64,000 nt of DNA from Salinispira pacifica (GTDB lineage Bacteria; Spirochaetota; Spirochaetia; DSM-27196; Salinispiraceae): the NCBI RefSeq assembly GCF_000507245.1, contig NC_023035.1, positions 2,585,570 through 2,649,569 on the forward strand, given 5' to 3'. Positions within the stretch are counted from its first letter, which is position 1. Every line of letters starts with the position of its first letter. The notes under the pieces are model-generated. The model saw only the letters and a list, made by a program, of their open reading frames with translations, ran no database searches and had not been told where the DNA came from. Shown here piece after piece: positions 32,020-38,143 of this stretch. The translations under genes were made by a program, and so were the position numbers.

Positions 32020-33414
32020 TCAATCTTCCCCCAGCCAGAGAACTCGCGCCGGCGAACCGGCACTGATGCTCAGCAGCGGACGTATTTCCTCTTTCGTGGT
32101 GCTTGCCGTATTGCCCGGAACTCCTGTGGAAGGATCGAAGCGGAAAACGGCAATGGTGTGAGAGTCCTGGTTCCCCACAGCCAGAAATTCACCCCCGGGA
32201 GAAAAGCTCATATCCCTGGGAGTATTGCCTCCGCAGGAAAACCTTCGGATGAAGCTGAGCTTCTGCAGGAAACCTCCATGACGTTCCACAGCGTATAGAA
32301 TAATCTCATCTGCGAACCTGTTGGAGAGAGCCAGTGTCCGGCCTGAAGGATGGAGCCGGATCGCCGAAGGGGCCTGGTTCTCTGTTGAAGCTGAGATATC
32401 AATATCCTCAACCAGCGTCAGCCCCGATGTAGGCTCCCCCTCCGTCTCAGGACCGGATCCTTCTGCGCGGCCGTCTTCCTCCCGGGCCTCTGGTCGTTCC
32501 TCTGGTCTTTGCTTTGGTCGTTCCGCTGGTCGTTGCTTTGGCTGGTCTTCATCACGGCGCAGCACCAGCAGCCGGGGCCGGAGTTCGCACAGGGCGTACA
32601 TATGGATCCCGTCGGGATCGAACTCAAGATGCCGGGGGCCGTACCCCCAGGGCAGCTGAGCATAGCTGATCACAGGGGTTTCGCCCTCGCCGTACCCGCT
32701 GATAATCCAGATCCGGTCGCTTCCCAGATCGGCGCAATAGATTCTGCCGTCCCGGGGGTGCACGGCTGCGAAGTGCACATGGGGCGCTTCCTGACGGGTC
32801 ATGTTCCGTCCAGCCGGCGGGGACCCGGCGGATGGCAGCGGCATGTGAAGCCGATGCAGTTCCCGGGGCTGTGCAGGGTCGGAAACGTCCACCACATGGA
32901 GAATCCCGGATGCGTAGGAGGATGCCAGCACAAGGGCTGCGGGTTCGGCGGGTTCCGGGGCGGCCGCCGGGTCTGCAGCTGAACGGGATGGTTCGGCGGT
33001 TTCGACAACCCGGGCTGCACCCGGGGATTTTTCTGCCGGGTTCACACTGTCACCTGACGGGCTGAAGAGGCTGAGGTGACACAATCCGTCGGACAGGGGA
33101 ATCATGGAAACGGGCTCCGGTTCGCCCTGTTCACGGATCGATTTTCGGATTGAGGCAAGCGTGTAGGAGTAGATGCCGCTTTCCTTTCCTGAAACTTCGG
33201 TGGCGGCATGGAGAAGCCCCCGGTTCCAGTCCGGCTGAATCCAGCTGGGGTTGGGAATGGGGCTGAAACTCCGGGAGTGCACCCGGGCGGCCTGGTTATC
33301 CGCCGGAGTATCACCCAGCTCCACCGAGTGCATCATCATGGATTCACCCCTGGGATCGGGAACATGCCCTTCCCTTCGGGTGTAGGAGCCGCTGATGAGG
33401 GTGAACCTGGTCAT
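32020..33414 (-). CDS. lactonase-fold (7-bladed beta-propeller) protein
   Basis: The 464-residue protein is of the 6-phosphogluconolactonase-like beta-propeller family: repeated units such as LLHAATEVSGKESGIYSYTL, HVHFAAVHPRDGRIYCADLGSDRIWI, PRHLEFDPDGIHMYALCELR and a final PRDMSFSPGGEFLAVGNQDSHTIAVFRFD. Two low-complexity insertions break the blades: an Ala/Pro/Glu-rich segment near 125-150 and a PKQRPAERPKQRPEERPEAR repeat near 290-320. Catalysis on 6-phosphogluconolactone is not certain. It overlaps the hemolysin III gene by 4 nt. Confidence 0.8.
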   Translation of the reverse strand: MTRFTLISGSYTRREGHVPDPRGESMMMHSVELGDTPADNQAARVHSRSFSPIPNPSWIQPDWNRGLLHAATEVSGKESGIYSYTLASIRKSIREQGEPEPVSMIPLSDGLCHLSLFSPSGDSVNPAEKSPGAARVVETAEPSRSAADPAAAPEPAEPAALVLASSYASGILHVVDVSDPAQPRELHRLHMPLPSAGSPPAGRNMTRQEAPHVHFAAVHPRDGRIYCADLGSDRIWIISGYGEGETPVISYAQLPWGYGPRHLEFDPDGIHMYALCELRPRLLVLRRDEDQPKQRPAERPKQRPEERPEAREEDGRAEGSGPETEGEPTSGLTLVEDIDISASTENQAPSAIRLHPSGRTLALSNRFADEIILYAVERHGGFLQKLSFIRRFSCGGNTPRDMSFSPGGEFLAVGNQDSHTIAVFRFDPSTGVPGNTASTTKEEIRPLLSISAGSPARVLWLGED

Positions 33415-34332: not shown

Positions 34333-35616
34333 TTATTCGGACATTTCCTTGCTGATGCTTATGGCTGCAATAGTGCCGTCGCTCACCGCAGTGGTGATTT
34401 GCCGGTACATCTTGGAGATAATATCTCCAGCGGCATACACTCCCTCCAGATTGGTCCGCATTTCATCATCGGTTTTGATATGGCCCCACTGATCCAGATC
34501 AAGGCCTTCCAGCCCCTCCAGGTTGGCCACAAAACCGATAAACACGAACACGCCGTGGGCCCGGATCTCTTTTTTCTCTCCGGATTTAAGATCTTCAACC
34601 ACAACGCCCATATCCATGGTTCCGTACTTTTTAAACTCCCTGGGCTCATGACTGAACATGAAGGAAACTTTTGAATCGGCTTTGATTTTTTCCTGGGCCT
34701 GTTTATTCGCCTGAAGATCATCAAACTGATGAACTATGGTGATTGAACGGGCAAATTTGGAGATAAACATGGCCTCTTCAATGGCAGAGTTGCCTCCGCC
34801 GATGACAATTACATCCTTATCGTCGAAATACTTGGCATCGCAGGTGGCGCAGTATGATATGCCGTCTCCCCGGTACTCCATCTCTCCGGGGACTCCCAGA
34901 GGACGGGGACTTGAACCGGTGGCTATTACAAGTTTTTTACCGGTAATGGTTTCCACTCCGTCTATCTTCACCTGTTTGCGTTCAAGATTCACTTCATTCA
35001 CTTCCACCGCCGCACGGAATTCAACGCCGTTCGCCTTGGCCTGTTCGCTCATATAATGGCTGAGCATCATTCCCTGCTGGGGCTCTACAAACCCGGGATA
35101 ATTGGAGACCTGATGGGTTGTTGCCACATATCCTCCCGGGAGAGCGACATCAATCAATACGGTCTTGAGTCTGGCCTGAGCAAGATACAATCCTGCAGTG
35201 AGACCTGCTGGTCCTCCCCCCAGGACGATCACATCCGCATCCGTGGAGGTTTGGGAGATTTTGCCGTGGAGCTGTGCGGCACGTTTTTCGCCCACCAATG
35301 CGTCCAGATTGCGCATGATGTCGGATCGCTTGATTCCGCCGGTAAGTTTATCTCCGGTGATCTCTCCGTTGCGGTAAAAAAGCAGGGTTGGACTACCGGT
35401 AACGTCCAGTTCTGTTGCAAGTTCCCGGTTTCCCTGACGGAAGATCTTCACAAAATTAATATCGTCCCCGTAAATCTCACTCAATGCCTGGTATTTACTG
35501 GCCAGTGCCTCACAGGGAGGGCATTCGGTGGAATAAAAGTCCAGTACTGCCAGGGGTTTATCAAGAACCTCAGCCTGGTACTGATCCGCATCAATTTCTG
35601 TAATTTTTCCTGCCAT
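34333..35616 (-). CDS. N-terminal thioredoxin fused to thioredoxin reductase
   Basis: The 427-residue protein has a thioredoxin domain (about 1-105) with a CPPC active site at Cys32-Cys35 in FYSTECPPCEALAS, then a low-molecular-weight thioredoxin reductase (about 128-427): GGGPAGLTAGLYLAQA for FAD, the redox CATC in ISYCATCDAKYF, GGGNSAIEEA for NADPH and AAGDI near the end. CPPC instead of CGPC and the N-terminal position of the thioredoxin are unusual. It is the last gene of the peptide-maturation-like cluster, and a 12-bp tandem repeat lies in its leader (inference: NADPH-driven reducing partner of the pathway). Confidence 0.9.
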   Translation of the reverse strand: MAGKITEIDADQYQAEVLDKPLAVLDFYSTECPPCEALASKYQALSEIYGDDINFVKIFRQGNRELATELDVTGSPTLLFYRNGEITGDKLTGGIKRSDIMRNLDALVGEKRAAQLHGKISQTSTDADVIVLGGGPAGLTAGLYLAQARLKTVLIDVALPGGYVATTHQVSNYPGFVEPQQGMMLSHYMSEQAKANGVEFRAAVEVNEVNLERKQVKIDGVETITGKKLVIATGSSPRPLGVPGEMEYRGDGISYCATCDAKYFDDKDVIVIGGGNSAIEEAMFISKFARSITIVHQFDDLQANKQAQEKIKADSKVSFMFSHEPREFKKYGTMDMGVVVEDLKSGEKKEIRAHGVFVFIGFVANLEGLEGLDLDQWGHIKTDDEMRTNLEGVYAAGDIISKMYRQITTAVSDGTIAAISISKEMSE

Positions 35617-35726: not shown

Positions 35727-37166
35727 TTATTGAAGCTGGACCTCATTGAAGTGAAGGTTTTCTTTCGGGTCCTTCCGCTTCTCTTCGGTTCTCTCATGGA
35801 TATCTGCATCCTGATACAAGGCCACCCCCATTGAGATAAGCCCGTCAACAGGGCGGCAGTCCGGGGCATGAAGATTACCTTCCCGGTTATATGCAACCGA
35901 CCCACAGCCTCCGCCGCAGGCCAGCTGGAGGGAACAGTCCCGGCATGCGGATATGGAGAGCACGTCACGATCTTCCCAGTCGGCAATTCTGTCATGGTCC
36001 AGATCCGTATGAGGATAAAAGCGCCCCAATTGTTCACCGTCCTTTCCCACTGTGGCGGTGCATGAGTAGATCTGACCGGTGTAATCATATGCCCATTCAG
36101 TTTTGGTGCCCGGGCAGCTGTCGAATAGAGGCGCCGGCAGTTCACCGTTCTCAAACAGGAAGCGGGAGATACTGTAGGCTGGGGTGTGAAACTCAAGAAT
36201 CTGAGGGTATCGTTGAATCTGCTCAAAAAGATCCTCGTACATTTCCAGCCTTCCGTAGAGGCGGTTCTGCTGATCCTGACAGTAGTGAAGCTCATAGTTC
36301 CGGCCCAGTTGGGTTTTAAATCGCGGATTGGCCGTCCACCCCCGCTTCAGGGCAAAATCTGCCAGCTCATGAAGCCGGGGAAGATTGTCCCTGTCCAGCA
36401 CTGAACGGAGGTTAATCTCCAGCCCCGCAGCGAGGGCGTCATCTATTCCCCGGACCACTTTCTCAAAATTCCGGTATTCGCCGCCGTTCATCCGTCCGGC
36501 CTTCAGAGGCCTTCGTCGGTCATGAACATCCCCCACTCCATCCAGCGTTACCTGAATCTCCCGGATTTTGGCCGTTGAGAGCAGATCGATGTATTCACTG
36601 AGATAATACCCGTTGGTAACCAGAGCGATTTCCACATTGCGTGCATTGGCGCCTTCAATGAGACGGGAGATAATCTTCCGCTGTCCCCCTCCGGGCAGAA
36701 GGGGTTCGCCGCCGAACACGGTGAGGTACCACGGTTTCCCCGCCAGATGTGTATCCAGATGGGTGAAAAACGCATCAATTACATCATCCTGAGCCTGATG
36801 GGAATCGTGAATGTATCCGTCCTGGTAACAGTAATCACAGGCAAAATTGCAGGCGTAGCCGGGAACATAGAAGACCTGCACTTCGCCGGCATCCCTCTCC
36901 CTGATAAAATCGGCGTACGCCAGCCGGTACAGGGAGGTTTCCCGCTCCGGATCGATAATATAGCCCTTCTCCGATAATTCCCGATAATCATCCGACTCAG
37001 GCTCTGAGAGTATGCTGCCGTCCCGGATTTTCGAGGCCAGTTCAGGAGAAATGATATCCGCCTGCCTGTGGAGAAGGTTCACCACAATCCAATCCTCCTG
37101 CCGGTGAATCTGTTTCAGGATATTGTGTCGGGAAAGGGTTTTATTCATTGATTGCTTAGCTTCCAT
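35727..37166 (-). CDS. radical SAM/SPASM peptide-maturase-like enzyme
   Basis: The 479-residue protein has an N-terminal region (EDWIVVNLLHRQADIISPELASKI) common in peptide-maturing radical SAM enzymes, then the [4Fe-4S]-SAM motif C-x3-C-x2-C at Cys106, Cys110 and Cys113 (YACNFACDYCYQDGY). The C-terminal SPASM domain is complete: DSCPGTKTEWAYDYTGQIYSC and CRDCSLQLACGGGCGSVAYN ending in APDC, for two auxiliary clusters. Such enzymes form thioether or C-C bonds in ribosomal peptides. The start is ATG 37166 with AGGAAG 7 nt upstream; the earlier in-frame start is over the leader. It follows the 35-residue peptide gene across an attenuator-like hairpin. Confidence 0.9.
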   Translation of the reverse strand: MEAKQSMNKTLSRHNILKQIHRQEDWIVVNLLHRQADIISPELASKIRDGSILSEPESDDYRELSEKGYIIDPERETSLYRLAYADFIRERDAGEVQVFYVPGYACNFACDYCYQDGYIHDSHQAQDDVIDAFFTHLDTHLAGKPWYLTVFGGEPLLPGGGQRKIISRLIEGANARNVEIALVTNGYYLSEYIDLLSTAKIREIQVTLDGVGDVHDRRRPLKAGRMNGGEYRNFEKVVRGIDDALAAGLEINLRSVLDRDNLPRLHELADFALKRGWTANPRFKTQLGRNYELHYCQDQQNRLYGRLEMYEDLFEQIQRYPQILEFHTPAYSISRFLFENGELPAPLFDSCPGTKTEWAYDYTGQIYSCTATVGKDGEQLGRFYPHTDLDHDRIADWEDRDVLSISACRDCSLQLACGGGCGSVAYNREGNLHAPDCRPVDGLISMGVALYQDADIHERTEEKRKDPKENLHFNEVQLQ

Positions 37167-37212: not shown

Positions 37213-37250
37213 AAAAATGACTCCGGGGAAGGGCTCACCCTCCCCCGAAG
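37213..37250 (-). terminator. attenuator-like terminator between peptide and radical SAM genes
   Basis: On the minus strand CTTCGGGGGAGGG pairs along its whole 13-bp length with CCCTTCCCCGGAG (two G-U pairs) around a TGAG loop and is followed by TCATTTTTCC. It lies between the peptide stop (37311) and the maturase start (37166), so it would lower read-through into the maturase. Confidence 0.7.
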
Positions 37251-37310
37251 CCCCCGAAATACGACCCGCCGTACATTCGGCGGATCCGGGATGACCTGGA
37301 CCCGGGGTCC

Positions 37311-37418
37311 TCAGTCGTGACAGCCCGCAACGACAGGGGACACCTTGGCACAACACTGAGCCTGGTTCTTATCGCCTTTGGGCTTTTTGCGGATCAGAGA
37401 CTTCATGGATTTCTTCAT
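37311..37418 (-). CDS. 35-residue Cys-containing peptide, candidate RiPP precursor
   Basis: The 36-codon frame begins ATG at 37418, 8 nt after a perfect AAGGAGG. It encodes MKKSMKSLIRKKPKGDKNQ (basic leader-like half) and AQCCAKVSPVVAGCHD (hydrophobic core-like half with three Cys at 22, 23 and 33). No signal peptide is seen. Position between the methyltransferase and the radical SAM gene, strong translation signals and an attenuator after it are typical of precursor peptides. It is too short for most gene finders. The modification and fate are unknown. Confidence 0.75.
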   Translation of the reverse strand: MKKSMKSLIRKKPKGDKNQAQCCAKVSPVVAGCHD

Positions 37419-37446
37419 AAAGATCCCTCCTTAGGTTTCAGCTTCG

Positions 37447-37468
37447 CCCCGTTCCTGAAGGAACGGGG
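37447..37468 (-). other. perfect hairpin in the peptide gene leader
   Basis: CCCCGTTCC and GGAACGGGG form a perfect 9-bp stem with a TTCA loop. It lies between the methyltransferase stop and the peptide Shine-Dalgarno. The T-run precedes the stem on the transcribed strand, so it is not a normal terminator; it may be a processing or stability element. Confidence 0.7.
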
Positions 37469-37477
37469 AAAAAACAT

Positions 37478-38143
37478 CTATTTGCTGCAGCAGGATGATC
37501 CTCCGGTCTTGTAACCCAGAATCGTCCAGCTGCAAACTTCCACTTTCCCCTTATCATAGGGGGTGCTTTCTTCCAGAATTTGAACATCCTTGAACCCCGC
37601 ATCTGATAGCTGGGTGATGTATTCTTCCCGGGTCACCGAGCCGGCCCAGCATTCTGCAACCGCCTGGGGATCCTCTGCATACTCATGGGGAACCGGCTGA
37701 AGCGAATAGATGTCGCTCACCACAAAACGGCCGCCGGGTTTGAGAATTCGGTGAATTTCCTTCCATACCATGCCTTTATCAGCCGCATGGTTGATGGTGC
37801 AGTTGGAGATGAGCAGATCCACTGAATTGCATTTCAGAGGAATGTATTCAAGATTGCTTTGGTGAAGTTCCACCTGTTCTTCCAGGTTCAGCTTGGTAAT
37901 GGTTTTCCGGGCTTTGGCAAGCATTCCCCGGCTGATATCCACACCGTGAACCCGGCCTTCAGGTCCCACGGCTTCCGCAAGGGTAACAAGGTCATTCCCT
38001 CTGCCGCTTCCCAGGTCCACACATACTTCCCCCGGCCGGGGTTGGGATTTATCTATAGCTCCGCCGCAGGATAGACAGCAGCTGGTCTCAGCCAAGTCGC
38101 TGTATCGCAGGTCTATTGCGGAGAGTACGTTTTCTTCGGACAT
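37478..38143 (-). CDS. ArsM-like Cys-rich SAM methyltransferase
   Basis: The 221-residue protein has a class I methyltransferase fold (VDLGSGRGND at 42-51, GVDISRGML, LISNCTINHAADKG, LKPGGRFVVSD). It resembles arsenite methyltransferases, sharing Cys115 (ISNC), Cys165 (ECWAGS, the ArsM C-x-x-G-A position) and an N-terminal Cys cluster (Cys22, Cys23, Cys26). It also ends with a GGSSCCSK tail not usual in ArsM. It could methylate arsenic, a peptide Cys or another thiol/metalloid. An AGGAG Shine-Dalgarno lies 7 nt before the ATG. As first gene of the cluster it precedes the 35-residue peptide. Confidence 0.8.
   Translation of the reverse strand: MSEENVLSAIDLRYSDLAETSCCLSCGGAIDKSQPRPGEVCVDLGSGRGNDLVTLAEAVGPEGRVHGVDISRGMLAKARKTITKLNLEEQVELHQSNLEYIPLKCNSVDLLISNCTINHAADKGMVWKEIHRILKPGGRFVVSDIYSLQPVPHEYAEDPQAVAECWAGSVTREEYITQLSDAGFKDVQILEESTPYDKGKVEVCSWTILGYKTGGSSCCSK

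Follow-up and report, generated by a model that had tools for sequence, protein, structure and literature searches.

A conserved precursor-like peptide encoded with a radical-SAM/SPASM enzyme, an ArsM-like methyltransferase and a thioredoxin reductase fusion in Salinispira pacifica

Salinispira pacifica, an anaerobic spirochaete whose source was a hypersaline mat (PMC4511686), carries a gene for a 35-residue peptide which, as judged from sequence comparison, is conserved, resembles a precursor and is locked together with a CteB-like maturase, an ArsM-like enzyme and a dithiol reductase. We lean, at a little better than even confidence, towards the view that this peptide is the precursor in a new radical-SAM RiPP-like system, and that its product is retained inside the cell, where it serves as thiol cofactor or carrier; both the modification and the bound partner are inferred.

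The peptide gene and the four-gene unit

The window, that is the whole 64,000-nucleotide stretch of DNA that was analyzed and to which coordinates refer unless another locus is named, contains on its minus strand a unit of four genes in the order ArsM-like methyltransferase, peptide, radical-SAM/SPASM enzyme and thioredoxin::thioredoxin reductase fusion. Its features are:

37478..38143, minus strand: ArsM-like SAM methyltransferase of 221 aa that opens the unit; C22/C23, C26, C41, C115 and C165 conserved, tail SCCSK
37447..37468, minus strand: hairpin of 9 bp, CCCCGTTCC/GGAACGGGG, between the methyltransferase and peptide genes (z -3.0)
37426..37432, minus strand: Shine-Dalgarno AAGGAGG, 7 nt 5' of the peptide ATG, read from the sequence
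37311..37418, minus strand: precursor peptide gene; MKKSMKSLIRKKPKGDKNQ leader (basic, variable) and AQCCAKVSPVVAGCHD core (near-invariant), stop TGA
37219..37252, minus strand: terminator-like hairpin of 15 bp followed by ATTTTT, between the peptide and maturase genes (z -4.8)
35727..37166, minus strand: radical-SAM/SPASM maturase, 479 aa; CxxxCxxC, seven-Cys SPASM motif, N-terminal RRE-like domain
34333..35616, minus strand: thioredoxin::thioredoxin reductase fusion of 427 aa that closes the unit; CPPC in the thioredoxin part and CATC in the reductase part

Translation of the complement of 37311-37418 gave MKKSMKSLIRKKPKGDKNQAQCCAKVSPVVAGCHD followed by a stop codon, in agreement with a preliminary description of this DNA that had proposed a 35-residue frame with Cys22, Cys23 and Cys33. 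The frame is present in a single copy in the host genome (one contig, 3,782,798 bases). Its Shine-Dalgarno had been called the strongest of the cluster, and this holds, AAGGAGG being a full match to the anti-Shine-Dalgarno core and the flanking genes having only AGGAG or AGGAA. The frame had also been described as hidden in a 239-nt gap. It does lie in the gap between the two flanking genes, but the figure of 239 nt, counted from the methyltransferase stop at 37478 to a GTG at 37238, probably does not stand: an alignment of homologues and an AGGAAG site make ATG 37166 the more likely start of the radical-SAM gene, and on these grounds initiation at GTG 37238, which would give a longer frame, is unlikely. 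Counted to ATG 37166, the gap measures about 311 nt. Since unrelated open frames on both strands also overlap this gap in the list of open reading frames, an open frame alone is no evidence for a gene, and the evidence is conservation.

Conservation of the core and linkage of the genes

Radical-SAM genes that share 55-58% identity with the window neighbour (P0003) were found in three further genomes of the class, each with a small frame at the equivalent place: MKSLIRKKPATKQVVAQCCAKNSKVVAGCHD, MRSLVNKKPANQKAVAQCCAKNSVVVAGCHD and MKSLIRKKRQSEKPGAQCCAKLSKIEAGCHD. A scan for the radical-SAM protein in one genome per species (84,980 species) gave 285 relatives, of which the best 80 were retained. 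All 80 genomes of these best relatives, which span Spirochaetota, Bacteroidota, Ignavibacteriota, Myxococcota and Elusimicrobiota, encode the peptide, 79 adjacent to the radical-SAM gene and one on another contig beside a methyltransferase. Four loci had first been scored as lacking it; on re-reading, three proved to contain the peptide inside longer frames and the fourth was the case on another contig. A methyltransferase match was found in 78 of the 80 loci, the exceptions being a contig end and a genome with the methyltransferase on another contig, and the thioredoxin::thioredoxin reductase fusion in 76, with three of the four exceptions at contig ends.

The converse search was independent of the radical-SAM gene and used a DNA pattern for CCAK...GCHD-stop on 395 genomes of the class. 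The pattern matched in 35 of them, once in each, and a reversed control pattern gave no match. At all 30 of the pattern-found loci that were inspected, the methyltransferase gene precedes the peptide and the radical-SAM gene follows it. A chance frame is ruled out by this class-wide pattern, by these 30 neighbourhoods and by conservation in the 99 distinct core sequences described below.

Across those 99 sequences the core reads A-[Q/L]-C-C-A-K-x-S-x3-[AV]-G-C-H-D-stop and is near-invariant: A, C, C, A, K, S, G, C, H and D do not vary, the position following the first A holds Q in 96 sequences and L in 3, G is preceded by A or V in 94, and at least 12 of the 16 positions are kept or conservatively varied. 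The collecting pattern itself required C, C, A, K, S, G, C, H and D; since 79 of the 80 radical-SAM loci fit it, little was lost by selecting cores in this way. The cores draw on each of the four Ala codons, each of the four TCN codons for Ser and both codons of Cys, Lys and His, with third positions varying; such full synonymous codon use with fixed residues indicates that selection acts on the protein. The N-terminal part varies in length and sequence, is Lys-rich and mostly begins M[KR][ST]L[IV]. On the alignment the layout is that of leader and core, unusual in that the core is the fixed part. The basic leader and cysteine-containing core proposed earlier beside a SPASM gene are thus supported, the leader varying, the core being fixed and the SPASM linkage near-obligatory; lack of conservation, which would have refuted the proposal, was not what the alignment revealed, as the frame is kept across phyla. 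The description had raised thioether bonds, disulfide bonds or a bound metal ion as possible fates of the cysteines; the ArsM-like methyltransferase, the thioredoxin::thioredoxin reductase fusion and the fixity of the core from phylum to phylum do not appear in it.

The penultimate core codon (His) was CAC in 62 of 77 cases (L035-L114) against about 30 expected from neighbour genes of the same locus (z 8.6, although the sequences are related and so not independent), and TGT was favoured for the second Cys of the Cys-Cys pair; this preference is unexplained and is possibly an expression-related codon choice. In one peptide, MKTLIKKKSAAQCCATAQCCAKISSIVAGCHD (L041:7883-7981), the AQCCA segment is partly duplicated within the leader. 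Two Paludibacter loci (L076 and L106) have an extra CGC motif in the leader, a gene for an outer-membrane-like protein (405-411 aa) between peptide and maturase, and downstream genes resembling CoA-disulfide reductase/rhodanese and SQR-like flavoproteins. At another locus (L005:763-2173) the maturase gene is seemingly split by a frameshift with peptide and methyltransferase intact; the contig is a draft and an assembly error is possible. No TGA was found at the Cys-Cys codons of the aligned cores that would mark a Sec variant, a weak test because the collecting pattern demanded Cys.

A mobile element was ruled out: at E 1e-40 the plasmid collection held nothing related to the maturase, and viral contigs held nothing related to the peptide. 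Phyla are intermixed in the maturase tree; support is weak and branches are long, so the tree allows no firm statement on gene transfer.

The hairpin at 37219-37252 is probably a partial terminator, which by inference would give more peptide than enzyme, and the folds are consistent with this. It could also be read as the target of a regulatory leader peptide, with ribosome stalling at the Cys-Cys codons governing a hairpin before the maturase gene, and its position 3' of the frame in the window suits that idea. We find it barely credible, because the non-Cys residues A, K, S, G, H and D are equally invariant, Ser and Ala use nearly all their codons, the frame stands second in the operon behind the methyltransferase, and a strong fold just past the peptide stop occurs in only 40% of the sequences (14% in a control stretch).

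The radical-SAM enzyme and its partners

The CxxxCxxC motif of the maturase (C130/134/137) and its SPASM cysteines (C375-X12-G388-X4-C393, C432/435/441/445 and C461) are conserved in at least 95% of 81 sequences, and the pattern CX12GX4C...CX2CX5CX3C...C fits the membership criterion CX9-15GX4C...CX2CX5CX3C...C. An AlphaFold2 model built from 38 window and locus sequences (pLDDT 84.8) has a separate N-terminal domain of three strands and three helices with pLDDT about 97. CteB (5why/5wgg) ranked first when the model was compared by Foldseek and VIA-align; the alignment starts at CteB residue 1 and covers model residues 12-455 (Z 24.8-24.9, 382-396 residues, rmsd 3.6-3.7). In RiPP maturation CteB forms thioethers, and it binds the leader by its N-terminal domain. 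The modelled fold thus predicts that the enzyme carries an RRE-type leader-binding domain, leader binding itself being inferred. Taken with the Cys motifs and the linked leader/core precursor (80/80 and 30/30), this predicted domain meets those criteria for a radical-SAM/SPASM RiPP system that rest on sequence and predicted structure; the further criterion, enzyme-dependent modification of the core, is here an inference.

The best NCBIfam models for the maturase were all of peptide maturases (CefB, TIGR04463, geopeptide and PapB) and all scored far under their cut-offs. The matches to CefB (NF038107, Cys-every-fifth; 131 bits, cut-off 600) and TIGR04463 (117 bits, cut-off 525) ran along nearly the whole length, although the peptide lacks a Cys-every-fifth pattern. 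The models for the SCIFF maturase (TIGR03974, 58 bits against 425) and the PapB-type ranthipeptide enzyme (NF047865, 90 bits against 340) were likewise not met. With CteB/CteA (SCIFF) and related ranthipeptides the system shares the full-length maturase fold including the N-terminal RRE-type domain, the seven-Cys SPASM motif and a short Cys-containing precursor encoded adjacently, with a core kept across many species. It differs in having only 16% identity, an unrelated precursor sequence with three Cys rather than the six in about 45 residues of the SCIFF precursor, additional ArsM-like and thioredoxin::thioredoxin reductase genes, and a distribution in Spirochaetota and Bacteroidota rather than Clostridia.

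Thioredoxins, DUF302, DUF6132, DUF1847, SQR-like flavoproteins, OsmC, TauE and rhodaneses recur outside the unit in the 80 loci, as do Crp/Fnr and MarR regulators. Two of these families, both without a known function, are tied to the unit: DUF1847 comes directly after it in many loci of Spirochaetota, DUF302 in many of Bacteroidota. In the window, 32020-33414 encodes a lactonase-fold protein with a long Pro/Arg/Glu/Lys-rich, repeat-like insertion in mid-domain (KQRPAERPKQRPEERPEAREEDG). An arsenic operon was ruled out, as no ars resistance gene is among the recurrent neighbours listed (the 25 commonest families of the 80 loci), the ArsR, ACR3 and ArsB families being absent from them. Judged by these gene families, the context is one of redox and sulfur, neither antibiosis nor a classical ars operon.

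This context bears on the possibility that the peptide gives rise to a secreted product, be it a ranthipeptide, a sactipeptide or something bacteriocin-like. The maturase is indeed nearest to thioether-forming SPASM enzymes, but no exporter, leader peptidase or immunity gene is among the recurrent neighbours listed for the 80 loci (their presence elsewhere in the genome is not excluded), the leader has no double-glycine site and the core is undiversified across phyla, so that a secreted product seems to us highly doubtful.

The nearest solved structures to the ArsM-like enzyme of the unit, METHYLTRANSFERASE, are arsenite methyltransferases (E 1e-25), and its C26, C115 and C165 align with Cys72, Cys174 and Cys224 of CmArsM, which have been described as an integral part of arsenite binding and serve as a criterion for membership (PMC5552862). 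Through these three residues it satisfies the ArsM criterion of at least three of four Cys, Cys44 included. They, together with C22/C23 and C41, are retained by at least 95% of 78 homologues. Most homologues also have a Cys-rich C-terminal tail; tails such as SCCSK, CCCC and GCGCSC (window 37478-37495; L035-L114) are short and recall the Cys-Cys of the peptide. The host genome has no close paralogue, and Sec forms of ArsM with UxxG have been listed (PMC13188914). The score against the NCBIfam arsenite methyltransferase model (NF008823, 174 bits) did not reach the cut-off of 263. The enzyme thus shares the methyltransferase fold and three arsenite-binding Cys with ArsM but falls below the family cut-off, is shorter (about 220 aa), lies outside an ars operon and is always paired with the peptide and the SPASM enzyme. 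The arsenic link of the unit rests on this methyltransferase alone.

The retained cysteines of the methyltransferase, with the invariance of the three Cys, the His and the Asp of the peptide, would suit an unmodified metallochaperone-like thiol peptide (CC...C, compare the arsenic chaperone ArsD) that supplies the ArsM-like enzyme with a trivalent metalloid, the SPASM enzyme having its substrate elsewhere. We consider this unlikely: a CteB-like SPASM enzyme with an RRE-type domain linked to the peptide at every locus is the hallmark of a maturase-substrate pair, and no ars genes recur nearby.

Proposed role and relation to known systems

In the reading that we favour, that of a RiPP-like precursor with an intracellular product, the RRE-like domain of the maturase would bind the leader through its conserved MKSL[IV] start and the enzyme would modify the core anaerobically, leader recognition and core modification both being inferences with good support. 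By analogy with CteB, the closest structural relative, the change would most likely be the bridging of at least one Cys to a nearby residue. On weaker inference, the product would be no exported antibiotic but a thiol cofactor or carrier of fixed structure that stays inside the cell; this has modest support because the core is invariant and no export genes recur. More speculatively, it would present the ArsM-like methyltransferase with a soft ligand, either a trivalent metalloid or sulfane sulfur, and both the peptide product and the methyltransferase would be re-reduced by the thioredoxin::thioredoxin reductase fusion. Thioredoxin systems are ArsM reductants, and the fusion could serve the methyltransferase without involvement of the peptide. 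The product has never been seen, and its modification, its ligand and the role of the methyltransferase are inferences; nor is the absence of a protease gene proof that the leader remains attached.

Cores that do not vary across phyla are typical of cofactor precursors such as PqqA and MftA, and the peptide could accordingly be a scaffold that yields a small cofactor by excision, in the way that PqqA yields PQQ and MftA yields mycofactocin; a methyltransferase and a redox enzyme are at hand within the unit. Two points make such a scaffold distinctly improbable, namely that neither a protease nor a further tailoring enzyme is among the recurrent neighbours listed for the 80 loci, and that the number of core positions kept or conservatively varied exceeds the need of a two-residue cofactor.

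ArsM-type and radical-SAM enzymes occur in one unit in the arsinothricin (ArsL/ArsM) and arsenosugar (ArsM/ArsS) pathways. The present unit resembles these organoarsenical pathways in that pairing and differs from them in having a radical-SAM enzyme of the SPASM peptide-maturase type and a conserved peptide. A related proposal, to which we give only low credence, is that the peptide is a carrier on which the ArsM-type methyltransferase and the SPASM enzyme jointly handle or build a metalloid- or sulfane-sulfur-bearing group.

A known peptide family was ruled out, no match to the peptide being found in NCBIfam (up to E 10) or Pfam. Literature searches on ArsM with radical SAM and RiPP, on the core letters and on SPASM/RiPP mining yielded no description of the system; a listing in the radical-SAM RiPP atlas or RadicalSAM.org is not excluded. 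What is new is therefore a radical-SAM RiPP-like system with a set of partners absent from the sources searched and an unusually fixed core, possibly corresponding to an unnamed atlas cluster.

Most RiPP precursors are variable and patchy. Here a core that is nearly letter-identical from spirochaetes through Bacteroidales to myxobacteria points to a fixed, basic function, as with PQQ, mycofactocin and SCIFF. The unit combines a peptide-modifying radical enzyme, a relative of arsenic methyltransferases and a thioredoxin reductase, whose joint action is unknown in the sources searched; it is small, self-contained and testable, and its host S. pacifica has been isolated. If the carrier proposal to which we give low credence is true, the peptide would be a gene-encoded cofactor, modified after translation, that bacteria of several phyla share for the chemistry of arsenic, selenium or sulfur.
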